DNA from: Lutibacter sp. B1
GTDB taxonomy: Bacteria; Bacteroidota; Bacteroidia; Flavobacteriales; Flavobacteriaceae
Direction of reading: 5' to 3'
NCBI RefSeq assembly: GCF_012524075.1
Contig: NZ_JAAZUI010000016.1
Location: 1 to 64,000, forward strand
Length of the DNA: 64,000 bases
Below are positions 188 to 29,496 of the stretch, in pieces; within the stretch, counting starts at the first letter, position 1, and each line of letters begins with the position of its first letter. The position numbers were made by a program, and so were the translations under genes. Below the pieces are notes generated by a model. That model ran no database searches, had not been told where the DNA came from, and saw only the letters and a list, made by a program, of their open reading frames with translations.

Positions 188-1114
188 ATGAGCAGCCAAA
201 AAACAATTTCAGAAATCACCATTTTATGGAAAACAGACAAAAAACAGTATGTAAAAAAATCGAGTTATGCAGCATATGCACTTTTAATCGAAAACCATTT
301 ATTACCAGCTTTTGGTAACAAATACAGTATTGAAGAAGCAGAAGTACAAGCCTTTGTATTTCAAAAATTAGCACAAGGGCTAAGCCAAAAAACCATTAAA
401 GACATAGTAATTGTGCTAAAAATGATTCTAAAATTTGGTGCTAAAAACAATTGGGCAACAAACACACCGTTAGATATTCAATACCCTACACAACGAGAAA
501 AACAACAATTAGAAGTGTTAAGTCGTAACCATCAAAAACAAATTATGACCTATATAGAAACCCATTTCACCTTTCGTAGTTTAGGAATTTACTTATGTTT
601 AAGTACAGGAATGCGTATTGGTGAAGTTTGTGCACTTACTTGGGAAGATCTAAATACCGACACTGGAATTATAAAAGTAAACAAAACCATACAGCGTATT
701 TACACTATTGAAGACAAAATTCGCAAAACAGAACTCATTATAGATACTCCGAAAACTAAAAATTCAATTCGTGAAATCCCTATGAGTCGATATTTATTGA
801 AAATGCTAAAACCCATCAAAAAAATTGTAAACAGTTCTTTTTTTGCACTCACAAATGATGCAAAACCAACAGAACCCAGAACCTACCGCAGTTATTACAA
901 AAACTTTATGAAAGATTTAGGAATGCCTCACCTCAAATTTCACGGACTCCGACACAGTTTTGCAACTCGATGTATTGAAAGTAAATGCGATTATAAAACC
1001 GTAAGTGTATTATTGGGGCATTCTAACATAAGCACCACTTTAAATTTATATGTACACCCAAATTTTGAACAAAAGAAAAAAGCAATTTACCAAATGTTTA
1101 GGTCATTGAATTAA
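188..1114 (+). CDS. Tyrosine recombinase/integrase, probably the hsdS invertase
   Basis: A 308-residue phage-integrase family protein. An N-terminal SAM-like core-binding domain (about 8-85) is followed by a catalytic domain. The catalytic residues are visible: R143 in STGMRIGEV, a lysine near 189-191, H252 and R255 in FHGLRHSFATR, H278 in LLGHSN, and nucleophile Y288 in LNLYVHP. It starts with ATG 51 bases from the hsdS fragment, divergent from it, and lies upstream of abi and hsdR. Small recombinases of this size inside type I restriction loci invert hsdS segments, so a local invertase is likelier than an island integrase. An island integrase cannot be excluded because a tRNA gene borders the accessory region at 13.4 kb. 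Confidence 0.92.
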   Translation: MSSQKTISEITILWKTDKKQYVKKSSYAAYALLIENHLLPAFGNKYSIEEAEVQAFVFQKLAQGLSQKTIKDIVIVLKMILKFGAKNNWATNTPLDIQYPTQREKQQLEVLSRNHQKQIMTYIETHFTFRSLGIYLCLSTGMRIGEVCALTWEDLNTDTGIIKVNKTIQRIYTIEDKIRKTELIIDTPKTKNSIREIPMSRYLLKMLKPIKKIVNSSFFALTNDAKPTEPRTYRSYYKNFMKDLGMPHLKFHGLRHSFATRCIESKCDYKTVSVLLGHSNISTTLNLYVHPNFEQKKKAIYQMFRSLN

Positions 1115-1232
1115 TATTGGTTACTTATCGTATTGCAAAGCAATTTAAGGCAAATCTACAAATAAGCAATTGAAAAATGGTTGAAAAAAACCTTTTTAGA
1201 AAAGCAATTCTGTAATTAAATATAGAAATATT

Positions 1233-1263
1233 GTACTTATAAGTACAAAAATACGTACATTTG
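1233..1263 (+). promoter_or_regulatory. Probable promoter with embedded 14-bp palindrome, upstream of the abi gene
   Basis: The perfect palindrome GTACTTATAAGTAC lies at 1233-1246. A TACATTTG element matching the Bacteroidetes -7 consensus (TAnnTTTG) lies at 1256-1263, and TTG at 1231-1233 is a possible -33 element with a somewhat long spacer of 22 bases. The palindrome occupies the space between the two boxes, as an operator would. Downstream, the leader holds complementary arms ACACACC (1271-1280) and GGTGTGT (1309-1316), so the 5' untranslated region before the ATG at 1406 is probably folded. Confidence 0.5.
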
Positions 1264-1405
1264 CAGTAACAGTACACACCACGCTACCCATTTGAACAGC
1301 GTCCCAGGGTGTGTCTTTTGCTTTTACACCTTTATTTTTTTCTTAACAAATTTACTTCCACACTCAGTAATTTTAAGTAAATTAGTTGCTGTTTTAAAAT
1401 TACCT

Positions 1406-2317
1406 ATGTTTAAGAAAATTGCAACCACAATCCCCCAACAAATAGAGCTTCTAAAAGAAAGAGGTTTACTAATTTCCTCGAACGATAAAGCTGAAAAATA
1501 CCTATCACATATTAGCTATTACAGGTTAGGTGAATATTGGTATGTAATGCAACAAGATAAAGAAAATCATATTTTTAAACCCAATAGCAAGTTTACCGAT
1601 GTAATTTCATTATACAACTTTGATGCTCAATTACGTATTTTATTATTTGATATAATCGAAAAAATTGAAATTAGCCTTAGAACTAAATTAATTTACCATT
1701 TATCACACGAAATAGACCCTTGGTGGTTTCAAAATTTTACTCATTTTTATGACAGTCTTGCATTAGTAAAAACATTAGCCAATTTAGAAGACGAACTCTC
1801 ACGAACTAAAGACATTACTATCAAAAATCACAAGAAGAAACATAAAGATGATTTACGCTACCCACCAGCTTGGAAGTCATTAGAACAAACAAGTTTTGGA
1901 GCTTTATCAAAATTATATGGTAATCTAAAACACACTGTTAATTCTAAAGACACCATTGCAAAAGAGTTTGGTGCAGTAAACCATACGTATTTACCAAGTT
2001 GGCTACAATCCATAGCACAAATACGAAACTATTGTGCACACCATTCTAGGCTATGGAATAGAAATCTTCCTGGAACCGTAAAATTACTTTCAAATCCGCC
2101 TAACCCTTGGATACGTGACAAAGAAAATGTACCTAAACAACACGAATTTCAAAAATTATATGTGCATTTATGCTTAATGAAGTATTTAATTAACACCATT
2201 CAGCCTAATAACAATTTCACAGAAAGACTAAACAACCTATTTGTAACCTATCCAAATGTTGATCCAAATGCCTTAGGTATGAAACCTAATTGGCAACAAG
2301 AACCATTATGGAAATAA
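1406..2317 (+). CDS. Abi_2 (AbiD/AbiF-like) abortive-infection family protein
   Basis: The first ATG that fits the family is at 1406 (MFKKIATTIPQQIELLKERG). The longer open frame begins with a TTG and hydrophobic residues unlike the family. The product has 303 residues. It has the Abi_2 hallmarks: TIPQQIELLKERGL, the SHISYYRLGEYWY segment, FDAQLRILLFDIIEKIEISLRT, and a C-terminal IRNYCAHHSRLWNR. That last RxxxxH-type HEPN-like motif suggests RNase activity (known for HEPN proteins, inferred here). It lies 10 bases before hsdR in the same direction, so it is probably co-transcribed and carried as a second anti-phage layer within the restriction locus. Confidence 0.88.
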   Translation: MFKKIATTIPQQIELLKERGLLISSNDKAEKYLSHISYYRLGEYWYVMQQDKENHIFKPNSKFTDVISLYNFDAQLRILLFDIIEKIEISLRTKLIYHLSHEIDPWWFQNFTHFYDSLALVKTLANLEDELSRTKDITIKNHKKKHKDDLRYPPAWKSLEQTSFGALSKLYGNLKHTVNSKDTIAKEFGAVNHTYLPSWLQSIAQIRNYCAHHSRLWNRNLPGTVKLLSNPPNPWIRDKENVPKQHEFQKLYVHLCLMKYLINTIQPNNNFTERLNNLFVTYPNVDPNALGMKPNWQQEPLWK

Positions 2318-2327
2318 AAAAATAGTT

Positions 2328-5180
2328 ATGAGTACACAACCAGAGCAAATTTTAGAAAATAAATTGGTTGCTCAATTAGAAAAACTAAGCTATGAAAAAG
2401 TCATCATTAAAGATGAAAAATCGCTTATCTCTAATTTAAAAGCACAATTAGAAAAACACAATAACATCACTTTTTCAAACAAAGAATTTGAACGTGTATT
2501 AAATATCTTAAGCAAAGGTTCTGTTTTTGAAAAAGCCAAAACACTAAGAGAAAAACAACATATTGTAAAAGATAATGGTGACGACCTTTATTTTGAGTTT
2601 TTAAATAGTGAGCATTGGTGTCAAAATCAGTATCAAGTAACACATCAAGTAACAATTGAAGGTAACTATAAAAACCGCTACGATGTTACGCTATTAATAA
2701 ACGGATTACCCTTAGTTCAAATAGAATTAAAACGGAGAGGCTTAGAAATGAAAGAAGCCTTTAACCAAATAAATCGCTATCAACGGCATTCATTTGGAGC
2801 AAATGCCGCACTGTTTCAGTACGTTCAAATATTTATCATTAGCAATGGTGTAAACACCAAATACTACGCAAACAACAGGCATCAATCTTTCAAACAAACA
2901 TTCTTTTGGACCGACAGAGAAAATAAGCGTTTAACTAATATTTTAAATGGGTTTACAAGTGATTTTTTAGAACCTTGCCATATCTCTAAAATGATATGTA
3001 AATACATTGTTTTAAATGAAACTCATAAAATATTAATGGTACTTCGCCCCTATCAATTTTATGCTGTGGAAGCTCTAATTGACAGAGTAAAAAACAGTAA
3101 TAAAAACGGTTATATTTGGCATACTACAGGCTCAGGAAAAACATTGACATCGTTTAAAGCAAGTCAAATAATTATGAAAATGCCACAAGTTAAAAAAGTG
3201 GTATTTGTGGTAGACAGAAAAGATTTAGATTACCAAACAACAAAAGAGTTCAATAGCTTTAGTAAAGGAAGTATTGGTGGAACCGACAATACAAAAGCGT
3301 TGGTAAAACAATTTTCTGATGATACCAAATTAATAGTAACCACCATTCAAAAGTTAAATACCGCAATTAGTAAAAAGCAGTATTTAAATAAAATGGAAAA
3401 ACTTAAAGAGGAACGAATTGTATTTATTTTTGACGAATGCCATAGAAGTCAGTTTGGCGATACACACAATCGTATAAAAGCATTTTTCAACAACATTCAG
3501 CTCTTTGGATTTACAGGAACGCCCATTTTTGCAGACAATGCTGTTAAAAATGAATTAGGAAAGCGAACCACTGAAGAACTTTTTGGGAAAAACTTACATA
3601 AATATGTAATTACTGATGCTATAAAAGATGAAAATGTACTCAAATTCTCGGTTGAATATGTAGGTAGATACAAACAAAAAGAAAGTGCCACCGAAATTGA
3701 TATTGAAGTAGAAGATATTGACACGAAAGAGTTAATGGAATCTCCAAAACGTTTAGAGAAAATTGCAGATTATATTATAGCAAATCACAAAAGAAAAACA
3801 CACAATCAAGAATTTACTGGAATGTTCTGCGTGAGCAGTGTAAATACCTTAATCAAATATTACGATATTCTACAACGTAAAAAAGAGGAAGGGAAACACA
3901 ACTTTAAAATTGCAACAATTTTTAGCTATGTAGCTAATGAAGATGATGCCGATGCCAATGGTTTTATTCCGGAAGAAGTATCTGTTGTTGAAGAATCTCC
4001 TGCTTTATACGGTTTACACAAACACAGTAGAGAAAAATTAGATGAGTACATCGTACAATATAATGAAATGTTTGGAGCTAATTTTTCAACAAAAGACAGC
4101 CAATCATTTTATAATTATTACAATGATATTTCCAAGAAAGTTAAAGAACGTAAAATTGATATACTATTAGTTGTAAATATGTTTTTAACAGGTTTCGATA
4201 GTCCACCTTTAAACACCTTGTATGTTGATAAAAACCTAAAATATCACGGTTTAATTCAAGCATATTCAAGAACAAATAGAATTTTAAATGAGCAAAAATC
4301 ACAAGGTAATATTGTAGTATTTAGAAACCTAAAAAAAGTAACAGACCAAGCAATTACACTTTTCAGTAATAAAGATGCTATTCCTGTAATTATTATGGAA
4401 CCTTACATTGATTATGTAAAACAATTTAATGAAGCATATATTGAATTATTAAAAATAACACCAACCATTAACAGTGTAAATAATTTAGCAAGCGAAGAAG
4501 ATGAATTGGCATTTATTCAAGCATTTAGAACATTAATGAGGCTTAAAAATACAATGTCAACTTTTGCTGATTTTAAATGGGAAGATTGCGCAATGAATGA
4601 GGAGTTATTCAATGATTTTAGAAGTAAATACTTAGACTTGTGGCAAAAAGTAAAATTTGACCATAATAAAGAAAAAGTATCTATTTTAGAAGATGTTGAT
4701 TTTGAATTAGAATTAATTCATAGAGATGAAATAAACGTAACTTATATATTAAAACTCTTAGCTGGTTTAAAAGATTCCAAAAAAGAGGATCAAGAAAAAA
4801 AGAAAAAAGAAGTACTTGATTTATTAGCTGGGGAAGCTCATTTAAGAAGCAAACGTGAATTGATTGAGAAATTTATTTTGGAAAATCTCCCTGAAATAGA
4901 AGACCCTGATACTATTCCTCAGGAGTTCGATAAATTTTGGAGTACCGAACAGCAAAAAGCATTTAATGATTTAGTGAAAGAGGAAAAATTATCTTCAACC
5001 AAAACTCAAAAATTAATTGAAGATTATCTATTTGCAGAACGGGAACCATTGAGAGATGAAGTTTTAAATTTAATAGAGGGAGATAAACCTTCGGTTTTAA
5101 AAAGAAAAAAAATTGGAGATACCATTCTTAAAAAAGTACTGAATTTTGTTGAAACTTTTGTAAATGGGTTTGATAGTTAG
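2328..5180 (+). CDS. hsdR: Type I restriction endonuclease subunit R
   Basis: A 950-residue motor/nuclease subunit of a type I restriction system. The N-terminal nuclease domain has the PD-(D/E)XK signature: D119 in NRYDVTLLING, and E133 and K135 in QIELKRRG, followed by a QINRYQRH motif. The SF2 helicase core has Walker A HTTGSGKT (265-272), the DECH box at 369-372, and GFTGTP. VNMFLTGFDSP and QAYSRTNR are the later helicase motifs. A charged C-terminal region would contact HsdM. All key residues are intact, so the enzyme should be active if hsdM/hsdS (not in the window) are present. It lies between abi (10-base gap) and the DUF5655 protein. Confidence 0.96.
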   Translation: MSTQPEQILENKLVAQLEKLSYEKVIIKDEKSLISNLKAQLEKHNNITFSNKEFERVLNILSKGSVFEKAKTLREKQHIVKDNGDDLYFEFLNSEHWCQNQYQVTHQVTIEGNYKNRYDVTLLINGLPLVQIELKRRGLEMKEAFNQINRYQRHSFGANAALFQYVQIFIISNGVNTKYYANNRHQSFKQTFFWTDRENKRLTNILNGFTSDFLEPCHISKMICKYIVLNETHKILMVLRPYQFYAVEALIDRVKNSNKNGYIWHTTGSGKTLTSFKASQIIMKMPQVKKVVFVVDRKDLDYQTTKEFNSFSKGSIGGTDNTKALVKQFSDDTKLIVTTIQKLNTAISKKQYLNKMEKLKEERIVFIFDECHRSQFGDTHNRIKAFFNNIQLFGFTGTPIFADNAVKNELGKRTTEELFGKNLHKYVITDAIKDENVLKFSVEYVGRYKQKESATEIDIEVEDIDTKELMESPKRLEKIADYIIANHKRKTHNQEFTGMFCVSSVNTLIKYYDILQRKKEEGKHNFKIATIFSYVANEDDADANGFIPEEVSVVEESPALYGLHKHSREKLDEYIVQYNEMFGANFSTKDSQSFYNYYNDISKKVKERKIDILLVVNMFLTGFDSPPLNTLYVDKNLKYHGLIQAYSRTNRILNEQKSQGNIVVFRNLKKVTDQAITLFSNKDAIPVIIMEPYIDYVKQFNEAYIELLKITPTINSVNNLASEEDELAFIQAFRTLMRLKNTMSTFADFKWEDCAMNEELFNDFRSKYLDLWQKVKFDHNKEKVSILEDVDFELELIHRDEINVTYILKLLAGLKDSKKEDQEKKKKEVLDLLAGEAHLRSKRELIEKFILENLPEIEDPDTIPQEFDKFWSTEQQKAFNDLVKEEKLSSTKTQKLIEDYLFAEREPLRDEVLNLIEGDKPSVLKRKKIGDTILKKVLNFVETFVNGFDS

Positions 5181-16027: not shown

Positions 16028-16108
16028 GGGCGTTCCCTTTCAGGTCGCGCTTTCCGTTATATCTTTTTAAAAAATTAAAAAGGATGCCACTACAATCGCT
16101 AACGCAAA
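16028..16108 (+). repeat. Interspersed repeat, copy A
   Basis: It begins GGGCGTTCCCTTTCAGGTCG and ends CAATCGCTAACGCAAA, with a variable middle that forms a TTTTTA/TAAAAA hairpin. The same ends occur in opposite orientation at 31325-31423, with a different inner hairpin. It lies between metF and metH. Confidence 0.75.
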
Positions 16109-16189
16109 ACAGAGTACTTTTTAGTAGCAAATGTACGTTTTTAGCTAATTTATTTTATAACTTTTTCACTTCTCACTTCTCACTTATAA

Positions 16190-27442: not shown

Positions 27443-27446
27443 GCTT

Positions 27447-27548
27447 GGTTATCTATCCATAAAATGGTAGAATTTAGCACCTTCTTTACAAAGTAAAGGG
27501 TTGCTAAGGCTTCTCCGGGTCTATTCCCTCGGCCTTTCTTGATAACAA
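27447..27548 (-). ncRNA. SAM-I (S-box) riboswitch upstream of the metX-thrA fusion
   Basis: The minus-strand RNA has the core elements GTTATCAAGAAAGGCCGAGG, GGAGAAGCCTTAGCAACC, AAGGTGCTAAATTCTACC and closing GATAAC. It is about 80% identical by eye to the metH copy at 20822-20920, with the same order and spacing. Confidence 0.93.
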
Positions 27549-27621: not shown

Positions 27622-28911
27622 TTAACTTACCAATAATGAAACTTCTTTAAAAGCAGCTTCTAAATCATTTTTTAAATCATCAATATCTTCAATTCCAACT
27701 GAAAGTCTTATTAAATCTTTCGTAACTCCTGATGATACTTGTTGCTCATCCGAAAGTTGTTGATGTGTGGTACTTGCAGGATGAATAATTAAAGATTTGG
27801 TATCTCCAATATTTGCCAATAATGAAAATACTTTTACTGTATCAACTATAGTTTTGGCAGCTTCAAAACCTCCTTTTACACCAAATGATAAAACTCCGCT
27901 TTGCCCTTTAGGTAAATATTTTTGTGCATTATTATAAGATTCATGAGACTCTAATCCCGGATAACTCACCCATTCAACTTCTTTTTGTTGCTCTAGCCAG
28001 TTAGCCAATTCTAAAGCATTTTTACTATGCTTTTCTAATCGTATTGGTAAAGTTTCCAATCCTTGAATTATTTGAAACGCATTGAATGGGCTTAAAGCTC
28101 CTCCAAAATCACGCAAACCTTCCAATCTAACTTTTGCAATATATGCCGCTTCTCCTAAAGCTTCACTGTAAACCAATCCGTGATACCCTTTTGAAGGTTC
28201 TGTAAATTCAGGAAACTTTCCATTAGTCCAATCAAAATTCCCTCCATCAACAATTGCTCCTCCTAAAGAATTTCCCTGTCCACCAATAAATTTTGTTAAA
28301 GAATAAACAACAATATTTGCTCCGTGCTTAATTGGATTTAGTAAATATGGCGTTGCAACTGTATTATCTACAATAAATGGAATTTTACTTTCAGTTGAAA
28401 TCTGTGAAATTGCTTCAATATCCAATACATCTAATTTTGGATTTCCGATGGATTCAACAAAAACTGCTCGTGTATTTTCTTGAACTGCTTCTTTAAAATT
28501 TTGAGGATTTGAAGCATCAACAAATGTTGTTGTTATTCCAAGCCTTGGTAACGTAACATTTAATAAATTGTATGTACCACCATACAATGTACTTGATGCA
28601 ACAATATGGTCTCCTGCTTTTAATAAAGTTAACAATGCTGTTGAAATTGCCGATGTGCCTGATGCAAAAACTGCGGCTCCAATTCCTCCATCTAAAGCCG
28701 CTAAACGCTGTTCTAAAATATCGTTTGTTGGGTTGTTTAAACGTGTATAAATAAACCCTGGTTCAGCTAGTGAAAATAAATTAGCTGCGTGTTCGGTATT
28801 ATTAAACACATACGATGATGTTTGATAAATAGGTACCGCTCTGGTTCCTGCCGTTTTTGAGGTATCATGACCTGCGTGTAATGCTTGTGTTGAAAATTTT
28901 TGTGTACTCAT
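27622..28911 (-). CDS. metY: O-acetylhomoserine (thiol)-lyase / aminocarboxypropyltransferase
   Basis: A 429-residue PLP enzyme making homocysteine from O-acetylhomoserine and sulfide. The PLP lysine is in NIVVYSLTKFIGGQGNSLGG. The insert around GKFPEFTEPSKGYHGLVYSE is typical of the long MetY family and absent from the shorter MetZ. DNTVATPYLLNPI is the cofactor motif. It is transcribed alone, upstream of the metX-thrA operon, behind a leader with two Met/Cys-rich peptides and two terminators. No SAM riboswitch is seen before it, unlike metX-thrA. Confidence 0.95.
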   Translation of the reverse strand: MSTQKFSTQALHAGHDTSKTAGTRAVPIYQTSSYVFNNTEHAANLFSLAEPGFIYTRLNNPTNDILEQRLAALDGGIGAAVFASGTSAISTALLTLLKAGDHIVASSTLYGGTYNLLNVTLPRLGITTTFVDASNPQNFKEAVQENTRAVFVESIGNPKLDVLDIEAISQISTESKIPFIVDNTVATPYLLNPIKHGANIVVYSLTKFIGGQGNSLGGAIVDGGNFDWTNGKFPEFTEPSKGYHGLVYSEALGEAAYIAKVRLEGLRDFGGALSPFNAFQIIQGLETLPIRLEKHSKNALELANWLEQQKEVEWVSYPGLESHESYNNAQKYLPKGQSGVLSFGVKGGFEAAKTIVDTVKVFSLLANIGDTKSLIIHPASTTHQQLSDEQQVSSGVTKDLIRLSVGIEDIDDLKNDLEAAFKEVSLLVS

Positions 28912-28944: not shown

Positions 28945-28983
28945 AAAAAAGTCCCTTTGGTTTAGGTATTACCAAAGGGACTT
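28945..28983 (-). terminator. Attenuator terminator 2 in the metY leader
   Basis: A perfect 13-bp stem, AAGTCCCTTTGGT (28949-28961) with ACCAAAGGGACTT (28971-28983), a 9-base loop and T-run (28945-28950 as A on plus). It lies 28 bases upstream of the metY ATG. The segment GGTATTACC (28965-28973) is complementary to GGTAATACC (29018-29026) in the end of leader peptide 2, a candidate antiterminator that reaches the loop and the top three stem pairs. Confidence 0.92.
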
Positions 28984-29009
28984 AAATCATTTTTGATTTT
29001 TTATTCCAT

Positions 29010-29102
29010 TCAATTCAGGTAATACCATAACATTATGCTACACATCATTTGCATAGGCATACAACAGTTGTTACACATACTATTTTGGAATATTGACTTC
29101 AT
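29010..29102 (-). CDS. metY leader peptide 2 (30 residues, Met/Cys-rich)
   Basis: ATG at 29102 to TGA at 29010. Residues 9-24 read MCNNCCMPMQMMCSIM, giving six Met and four Cys in sixteen residues, an extreme composition in this genome. The ORF ends 27 bases before attenuator terminator 2, the classical geometry of ribosome-mediated attenuation: stalling on Met or Cys codons would leave downstream RNA free to refold. Too short for normal gene callers. It starts just after terminator 1. Confidence 0.8.
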   Translation of the reverse strand: MKSIFQNSMCNNCCMPMQMMCSIMLWYYLN

Positions 29103-29119
29103 TTTTTGTTTTATAGAAT

Positions 29120-29146
29120 AAAAAAGCCTCTGAAAAATTCAGAGGC
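29120..29146 (-). terminator. Attenuator terminator 1 in the metY leader
   Basis: A perfect 9-bp stem GCCTCTGAA (29126-29134) with TTCAGAGGC (29138-29146), 3-base loop, then TTTTTT on the minus strand. CAGAGG in leader peptide 1 (29187-29192) is complementary to CCUCUG of its 5' arm, a candidate antiterminator. Confidence 0.92.
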
Positions 29147-29172
29147 CTCTATTAATTTATATTTTTTAAATT

Positions 29173-29241
29173 TTAAACAATAGTGTCCTCTGCGTAAATT
29201 TTACACATCATAAAACACATTTTGTTTAAAATAGCATTCAT
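29173..29241 (-). CDS. metY leader peptide 1 (22 residues, Met/Cys-rich)
   Basis: ATG at 29241 to TAA at 29173, with KMCFMMCK at residues 7-14, so three Met and two Cys in six codons. The stop is 27 bases before attenuator terminator 1. The codons after the Met/Cys cluster contain CAGAGG, which can pair with the terminator's 5' arm. The ATG lies about 20 bases after the -7 element, so the 5' UTR is very short, as in known amino-acid leader peptides. Confidence 0.78.
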   Translation of the reverse strand: MNAILNKMCFMMCKIYAEDTIV

Positions 29242-29261
29242 TTTTCTTCGTTTTATTGCAA

Positions 29262-29292
29262 CAAATGTAATTACATTTTTTTATTAAACAAA
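29262..29292 (-). promoter_or_regulatory. Bacteroidetes-type promoter of the metY leader
   Basis: On the minus strand, TTTG (29292-29289) and TACATTTG (29269-29262) are separated by 19 bases, matching the TTTG / TAnnTTTG consensus and spacing. The first leader ATG follows 20 bases later. Confidence 0.8.
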
Positions 29293-29352: not shown

Positions 29353-29369
29353 TACCCAATAAATTATTA

Positions 29370-29413
29370 GAGGAAGGATTTGACTGATTGCAACCTCATT
29401 AAAAAATGCTAAA
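29370..29413 (+). ncRNA. SAM-II-like (SAM-alpha) riboswitch upstream of metK
   Basis: Stem 1 GAGG (29370-29373) pairs with CCTC (29394-29397) around GGATTTGACTGATTGCAA. An A-rich linker and then GCTAAA (29408-29413) follow. GATTTG-AC, TTGCAACC and GCTAAA in this order and spacing are the SAM-II conserved positions. Downstream, GCAATCAAATC (29446-29456) can pair with the GATTTG..GATTGC segment, a possible alternative fold as expression platform. It lies 84 bases upstream of metK, a natural target. Confidence 0.75.
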
Positions 29414-29496
29414 GCAGTAATAATTTACTTCTTTTAGCGACCAACGCAATCAAATCAAAATCATTTTTCAATTTAAATTAAACATAAATTAGAATT

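Follow-up and report, generated by a model that had tools for sequence, protein, structure and literature searches.

The metY gene of Lutibacter sp. B1 is preceded by a leader made up of two consecutive units, each consisting of a short open reading frame (ORF) rich in Met and Cys codons and an intrinsic terminator with whose 5' arm the 3' end of that ORF can pair. We consider it highly probable (roughly 0.88) that metY is controlled by two trp-type attenuators in series, which would sense charged tRNA-Met and charged tRNA-Cys. The parts of the leader were located computationally in a stretch of 64,000 nucleotides, referred to here as the window, and were then compared with metY loci and related leaders from other genomes.

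The metY leader and its surroundings

A promoter, two ORFs, two terminators and metY itself had been named in an earlier, sequence-only reading of this DNA, and all of them were found in their places on the minus strand (Table 1). We take the TTTG-N19-TACATTTG motif to be a promoter of the Bacteroidota type. Met or Cys accounts for 5 of the 21 internal codons of ORF 1 and for 10 of the 29 of ORF 2, and the leader folds with a z-score of -8.26, as good a value being reached in 0 of 100 shuffles. Terminator 1 was recovered by a consensus terminator scan; terminator 2 is absent from the list produced by that scan because its loop of 9 exceeds the limit of 8. Two details of the earlier reading need correcting: the stop codon and the terminator stem are separated by 26 bases in both units, not 27, and the remark that the second antiterminator invades only three stem pairs was too pessimistic, as RNAduplex gives 9 + 3 + 3 pairs at -14.8 kcal/mol, which take in bases of the 5' arm of terminator 2. 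The proposed pairing of CAGAGG in ORF 1 with the 5' arm of terminator 1 holds up in the comparative analysis described below.

A search with 4227 Rfam families at the gathering score returned zero matches within 28945-29292, and a riboswitch (SAM-I or SAM-II) or a T-box was rejected as the metY leader on this ground. The leader is thereby the odd one out in SAM-controlled surroundings, since metX, the metH-like gene and metK all have SAM riboswitches (Table 1). Only two SAM-I riboswitches were found in the 3.42-Mb assembly, before metX-lysC-hom and before the metH-like gene, and a scan of the same genome with both covariance models introduced below identified the metY leader as the only Met/Cys leader of its kind. 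The metH-like gene itself is split into two pieces, of 337 aa and 1033 aa, that flank a separate 118-aa ORF (window 20753-16214, minus strand), the pieces being presumptively named from their sequence, and a Flavo-1 RNA (RF01705) lies at 16039-16110 on the minus strand, just downstream of the second piece.

Table 1. Positions in the window of the metY leader, its parts and the neighbouring riboswitches
Feature	Position	Strand	Basis
Putative promoter, TTTG-N19-TACATTTG	TTTG 29292-29289; TACATTTG 29269-29262	-	Sequence
Leader ORF 1, MNAILNKMCFMMCKIYAEDTIV, 22 codons, contains KMCFMMCK	29173..29241 (including stop)	-	Sequence, relatives
Segment 1 of unit 1, ATTTTAAACAA	29222..29232	-	1:2 helix with 29180-29170; fold and swap test
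Partner of segment 1, across the ORF 1 stop codon	29170..29180	-	Fold and swap test
Antiterminator strand 1, CAGAGG, ORF 1 codons 17-19	29187..29192	-	Comparative pairing
Terminator 1	29122..29150	-	9-bp stem GCCTCTGAA/TTCAGAGGC at 29146-29126, then U-run
Target of CAGAGG in terminator 1, CCTCTG	29145-29140	-	Sequence and pairing
Leader ORF 2, MKSIFQNSMCNNCCMPMQMMCSIMLWYYLN, 30 codons, contains MCNNCCMPMQMMCSIM	29010..29102 (including stop)	-	Sequence, relatives
Antiterminator strand 2, GGTATTACC, 3' end of ORF 2	29018..29026	-	Comparative pairing
Terminator 2	28949..28983	-	13-bp stem, loop AATACCTAA, then U-run
Target of antiterminator strand 2 in terminator 2, GGTAATACC	28973-28965	-	Pairing
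metY, Cys/Met metabolism PLP enzyme (PF01053), regulated gene	27622..28911	-	
SAM-I riboswitch between metY and metX-lysC-hom	27446..27548	-	Rfam
SAM-II riboswitch before divergent metK	29364..29422	+	Rfam
SAM-I riboswitch before the metH-like gene	20923-20820	-	Rfam

Distribution among metY loci and probable exchange with SAM-I

The comparison set comprised the best 80 of 455 metY relatives, taken from other genomes. A Met/Cys leader ORF with a terminator stands before metY in 24 of these 80 loci; both units are present in 16, unit 1 in 23 and unit 2 in 17, and the eight single-unit leaders lack either unit 2 (L003 and six Flavobacterium loci) or unit 1 (L024). Conservation in relatives had been proposed as a check on the leader, and the two ORFs do recur with their Met/Cys codons, as do the terminators and antiterminators of both units. 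The SAM-I riboswitch (S-box, RF00162), which senses SAM directly and without a leader ORF, occupies the same place directly upstream of metY in 49 of the 80 loci, and the two never occur there together (0/80). SAM-I is found downstream of metY in 16 of the 24 leader loci. Neither sensor precedes metY in 7 of the 80: L008 is a contig end showing a unit-2-like terminator, L053 has a SAM-II riboswitch before metY, and L005, L030, L047, L051 and L061 have neither SAM-I nor a recognisable leader upstream of metY and SAM-I downstream.

When the leader label is mapped on a protein tree of metY with 81 rows, 5 changes are needed, 3 of them forced by well-supported branches, compared with a mean of 21.8 for shuffled labels, of which 0 of 500 were as low. 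These label changes suggest that leader and SAM-I have replaced one another more than once, although metY may instead have been transferred together with its own leader.

Predicted pairing of each ORF with its own terminator

In each unit the terminator that follows the ORF has a 5' arm (and loop) to which the 3' end of that ORF can pair. The first set used to compare own with swapped partners held 24 unit-1 rows (23 loci and the window) and 18 unit-2 rows (17 loci and the window); in L026 and L046 the terminator finder had missed the unit-2 terminator, which was placed by eye. Own partners paired at -12.3 kcal/mol against -9.8 for swapped partners in unit 1, and at -13.4 against -9.9 in unit 2, with 0 of 5000 permutations as good in either case; with one row per group, the corresponding numbers were 0/5000 (14 rows) and 1/5000 (13 rows). 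Held-out units were gathered with covariance models in which the terminators are the only base pairs modelled and the sequence is that of the whole leader, and rows whose similarity ratio to an earlier row reached 0.8 were dropped (13 of 33 and 5 of 22); own-partner pairing was again better in the less similar rows that were left (20 and 17 rows, 0/5000 each).

The paired strings, given as antiterminator strand and target, are CAGAGG/CCTCTG in the window, GCAGCG/CGCTGC in L026 and L035, AAAGGC/GCCTTT in L046 and GCGGG/CCCGC in L028. Across the alignments, 77.2% of cells are paired in unit 1 and 81.5% in unit 2, against 36-51% and 33-53% in slid registers, and in both units the number of paired cells and the covariation score were reached in 0 of 500 shuffles. 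Two-sided changed pairs (4) and further pair types (9) are unexceptional in unit 1, where 105 and 123 of 500 shuffles reach them, whereas in unit 2 both are exceptional (6 and 10 of 500). RNAalifold returned only the terminators from the unit alignments, and the alternative pairings were tested separately. The 1:2 helix of unit 1 is specific to its locus (own against swapped partners -11.47 and -7.81 kcal/mol, 0/5000), whereas its unit-2 counterpart is weak (14 and 141 of 5000). Because the 1:2 helix is locus-specific as well, unit 1 has the whole 1:2, 2:3 and 3:4 set of a trp attenuator.

Codon content, spacing and a probable shared transcript

Met and Cys together make up 24.2% of the internal codons in unit 1 and 30.4% in unit 2, compared with 2.7% in the window's ORFs of at least 150 aa, an enrichment that is partly one of selection, at least two internal Met/Cys codons having been required of collected units. 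Their share is also raised in frame +1, to 9.9% and 11.8%.

In the 57 unit-1 leaders the last Met/Cys codon lies a median of 12 nt (IQR 11-12) before the predicted antiterminator core, the core 12 nt before the stop codon and the stop codon 16-39 nt before the terminator. The ribosome reaches about 12 nt ahead according to excerpts of PMC4833913 and PMC3641672, so that with this spacing a stall would just free the antiterminator strand and a ribosome at the stop codon would cover it. The 40 unit-2 leaders are looser, with a median of 4 nt (IQR 4-13) from the last Met/Cys codon to the core and 5 nt from core to stop codon, and stalling at the last Met/Cys codons would, at this shorter distance, cover part of the strand. 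The promoter motif TANNTTTG occurs in the 45 nt preceding ORF 1 in 32 of 57 unit-1 leaders (median position -28; 2.1% in shuffles) and in 0 of 40 unit-2 leaders before ORF 2; its presence before the first ORF and absence before the second indicate that both units most likely lie on one transcript. The locus-specific pairing, this distribution of the promoter motif and the target genes described below together lend support to the serial Met/Cys attenuators that the sequence-only reading had put forward.

A model of the switch

When Met-tRNA and Cys-tRNA are plentiful, a ribosome translating each leader ORF would proceed to its stop codon and cover the antiterminator strand, which lies in the last codons; the terminator would then form, and RNA polymerase would halt at the first terminator or else at the second. 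Under a shortage of charged tRNA-Met or tRNA-Cys, a ribosome stalled at the Met/Cys codons farther upstream would leave the antiterminator strand free to pair with the terminator's 5' arm, and the polymerase would continue. In an untranslated unit 1 the 1:2 helix would fold around the antiterminator strand, which would make termination the default. Since the polymerase must pass both terminators, the two units would be expected to act multiplicatively.

A partial-transcript model, which is a feasibility sketch in that it picks the most favourable among several stall positions and leaves a longer strand free, gives the antiterminator a median gain of 9.5 and 13.8 pairs in the stalled state and of 0.9 and 1.8 with the ribosome at the stop codon. 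Once both arms are present, the terminator has an equilibrium probability of about 0.93 in the model (0.92 and 0.96 in the window) even with the ribosome stalled. This counts against the proposed switch at equilibrium; antitermination would have to be kinetic, and we infer a switch that is set before the 3' arm of the terminator is transcribed.

Collected units and their target genes

The two covariance models, R1 and R2, provided a wider collection of units. A unit was obtained from 33 of 34 R2 loci (L110 yielded none, though leaders are visible there) and from 22 of 25 R1 loci (the exceptions being L135, L136 and L141). Loci L123, L140, L143-L152, L176, L179, L181, L182, L187 and L191-L194 were omitted; most of these turned out on inspection to lack a unit of this kind, L192 being a true metY leader among them, and the places covered by L181 and L182 are also in L153 and L154. 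The resulting 55 units are a selected set in which many entries come in pairs from a single leader and L177 and L186 are the same unit, present in both the R1 and the R2 sets. The next gene is metY-like for 41 of them and metX-like for 4 (45 of 55 together), another gene for 9, and was not found for one (L173, tallied as "other"); "metY" here means that, of the two references, metY was the best match, and it includes a distant paralogue (L116, 37%).

Most targets other than metY and metX would also fit a Met/Cys signal. A nitrite/sulfite reductase-type gene is the target in two genomes of another family, each with two Met/Cys leaders (L177/L186 and L190), and the gene of L177, on which this was tested, has domains PF01077 and PF03460. 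In L174 the target is a hexapeptide transferase with a PALP enzyme after it, a pair that we read as serine acetyltransferase and CysK, and OsmC-like genes follow in L175 (tested) and in L189 (by sequence, with a metB-like ORF next). In L153 (G317, 757-4371) a 948-aa TonB receptor lies between the units, so that unit 1 precedes the receptor and unit 2 precedes metY. An ORF that we presume to be transposase-like stands at 2144 in L112 (G007), near the contig end, behind a tandem leader where metY is expected. A further Met-rich leader, MKNFYRRNMIMMNKCMKMYQLFYGQKRKS, was seen at 1682 in L156 (G022) upstream of genes that include a Peripla_BP_2 protein and a permease-like ORF, a set that could serve B12 or iron uptake.

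The model tallies themselves (at E <= 1e-3, 47/349 for R2 and 70/349 for R1; in the class, 10/395 for R2 at 1e-4 and 15/395 for R1 at 1e-5) do not equal true leader counts, because weak matches are mostly not Met/Cys leaders: twenty weak-match stretches included seven with a Met/Cys unit (L153-L157, L170, L171), six that lie before ilvD-/ilvE-like genes and seven without anything of the leader kind.

We lean, with some reserve, towards the view that in Bacteroidia serial Met/Cys attenuators form a portable module for sulphur genes (metY, metX, the sulfite reductase-type and cysK-like genes, perhaps uptake genes), one that reads two charged tRNAs, multiplies the effects of its terminators and has been exchanged with SAM-I several times. 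If so, an exchange with SAM-I would shift the signal of a gene from SAM to charged Met and Cys tRNA, and the leaders would offer both a case of riboswitch and peptide sensor trading places at one gene and a naturally occurring system in which to measure the combined action of serial attenuators. Attenuation of the trp type requires the coupling of transcription to translation, and the module, if real, would bear on such coupling in Bacteroidota.

Alternative explanations

The same attenuators might sense only methionine, through charged tRNA-Met, with the Cys codons secondary. Met codons do outnumber Cys codons in both units (210:98 in unit 1 and 228:131 in unit 2), some of the unit-2 Cys codons fall in the pairing strand TATTGCC itself and so contribute to the Cys count there, and no Cys codon precedes the antiterminator in either unit of L075 or in unit 2 of L006. 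Cys, however, makes up 0.6% of the residues of the window's ORFs and yet about one third of the Met/Cys codons of the leaders, and Met/Cys leaders also precede the sulfite/nitrite reductase-type gene and the transferase/cysK-like pair; a methionine-only sensor thus strikes us as possible and rather doubtful.

The sensing of both charged tRNAs by attenuation can also be set against explanations that dispense with it. Control could act through translation or Rho, as excerpts of PMC1262725 suggest for Rho in mycobacterial Cys-rich leaders, which have no conserved terminator hairpins, but this is improbable for leaders whose two units both have strong U-tailed terminators with 5' arms that pair specifically with ORF segments. 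It is less credible still that the ORFs encode small functional proteins, such as metal- or thiol-binding peptides of the MxxM/CC sort, placed by chance in front of ordinary terminators: short Met/Cys-rich peptides do resemble metal-binding motifs, but these peptides vary widely outside the Met/Cys run and the terminator-pairing codons, each ORF has an end whose pairing is specific to the terminator of the same unit, and metY or metX is the next gene for most of the collected units. Each hairpin is an intrinsic terminator of the standard kind, and one might take the two for the plain 3' ends of neighbouring transcripts with the ORFs as chance frames in AT-rich DNA; the neighbouring metK is divergent, however, and the ORF recurs in company with its codon content, its spacing and its antiterminator, as does the locus-specific pairing, which leaves this explanation next to no credence.

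Relation to known systems

The trp, his and leu attenuators share with the metY leader a short ORF with a run of regulatory codons, a U-tailed terminator, a biosynthetic target gene and the 2:3 and 3:4 pairings, to which unit 1 adds 1:2; unlike them, the metY leader combines Met with Cys codons, has two units in series and belongs to Bacteroidota. Mycobacterial polycysteine leader ORFs are reportedly the subject of Canestrari 2020. As portrayed in excerpts of PMC9031893, PMC9094748 and PMC1262725, they share Cys codons in a leader ORF and sulphur genes as targets, but they are leaderless, have no conserved terminator hairpin and come from another phylum, and these excerpts make no mention of Met codons. 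A uORF before cysS, uORFC-8-2, has two tandem Cys codons ahead of an intrinsic terminator, and differs in being a single unit with Cys only, in proteobacteria, with cysteinyl-tRNA synthetase as its target (PMC8632094, in excerpt). Two short ORFs that are each an attenuator, mgtM and mgtP, also precede Salmonella mgtCBR; these respond to ATP and proline, and their stem-loops are unlike intrinsic terminators according to the excerpted text of PMC3641672, whereas the metY leader has intrinsic terminators and the same two amino acids in both units.

A literature search confined to open-licence PMC papers, and hence weak evidence of absence, found no Met/Cys tandem leader. Lopatovskaya 2010, on attenuation across bacteria, could list Bacteroidetes leaders. 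An older attenuator screen leaves Bacteroidetes unmentioned in the excerpted main text (PMC2965389), and small ORFs of B. thetaiotaomicron have been noted as reminiscent of leader peptides (PMC7366714, in excerpt). In the same family as Lutibacter, a transcriptome of Flavobacterium psychrophilum gave strong clues to leader-peptide attenuation before amino-acid biosynthesis operons (PMC9723704, in excerpt); the main text of that paper contains neither "methionine" nor "metY". The statement in the sequence-only reading that no tandem Met/Cys attenuator has been described stands as far as the open-licence literature goes, and it has to be narrowed, as mgtCBR is a tandem precedent and leader-peptide attenuation in a flavobacterium was already suspected. 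The class of mechanism is old; the combination of Met with Cys as the signal, the serial arrangement of two intrinsic terminators, the occurrence in Bacteroidota and the trading of places with SAM-I mark this leader as a novel form of it.

Other leader peptides found by the models

A weak match to both models in the same genome, L082 (G000:C115:20700-20820, reverse), was set aside as a His leader, not a Met/Cys leader: MNFIQSHHHFHTGTQAR is followed by the terminator ACCCGTTTGAGAAAATCAAACGGGT with a U-run, before a gene that is presumably hisG-like. Lutibacter sp. B1 seems, from this sequence, to use leader-peptide attenuation for his as well. The six weak-match stretches before genes that we take to be ilvD- or ilvE-like comprise L161, L162, L165, L166 and L168, which are weak R2 matches before ilvD-like genes, and L169, on the reverse strand of which an Ile/Val-rich leader, MNNIKNIVIIIVIINSPPS, and then a terminator-like hairpin lie ahead of a presumed branched-chain aminotransferase-like ORF at 1672, the leader being 271 nt upstream of that ORF.
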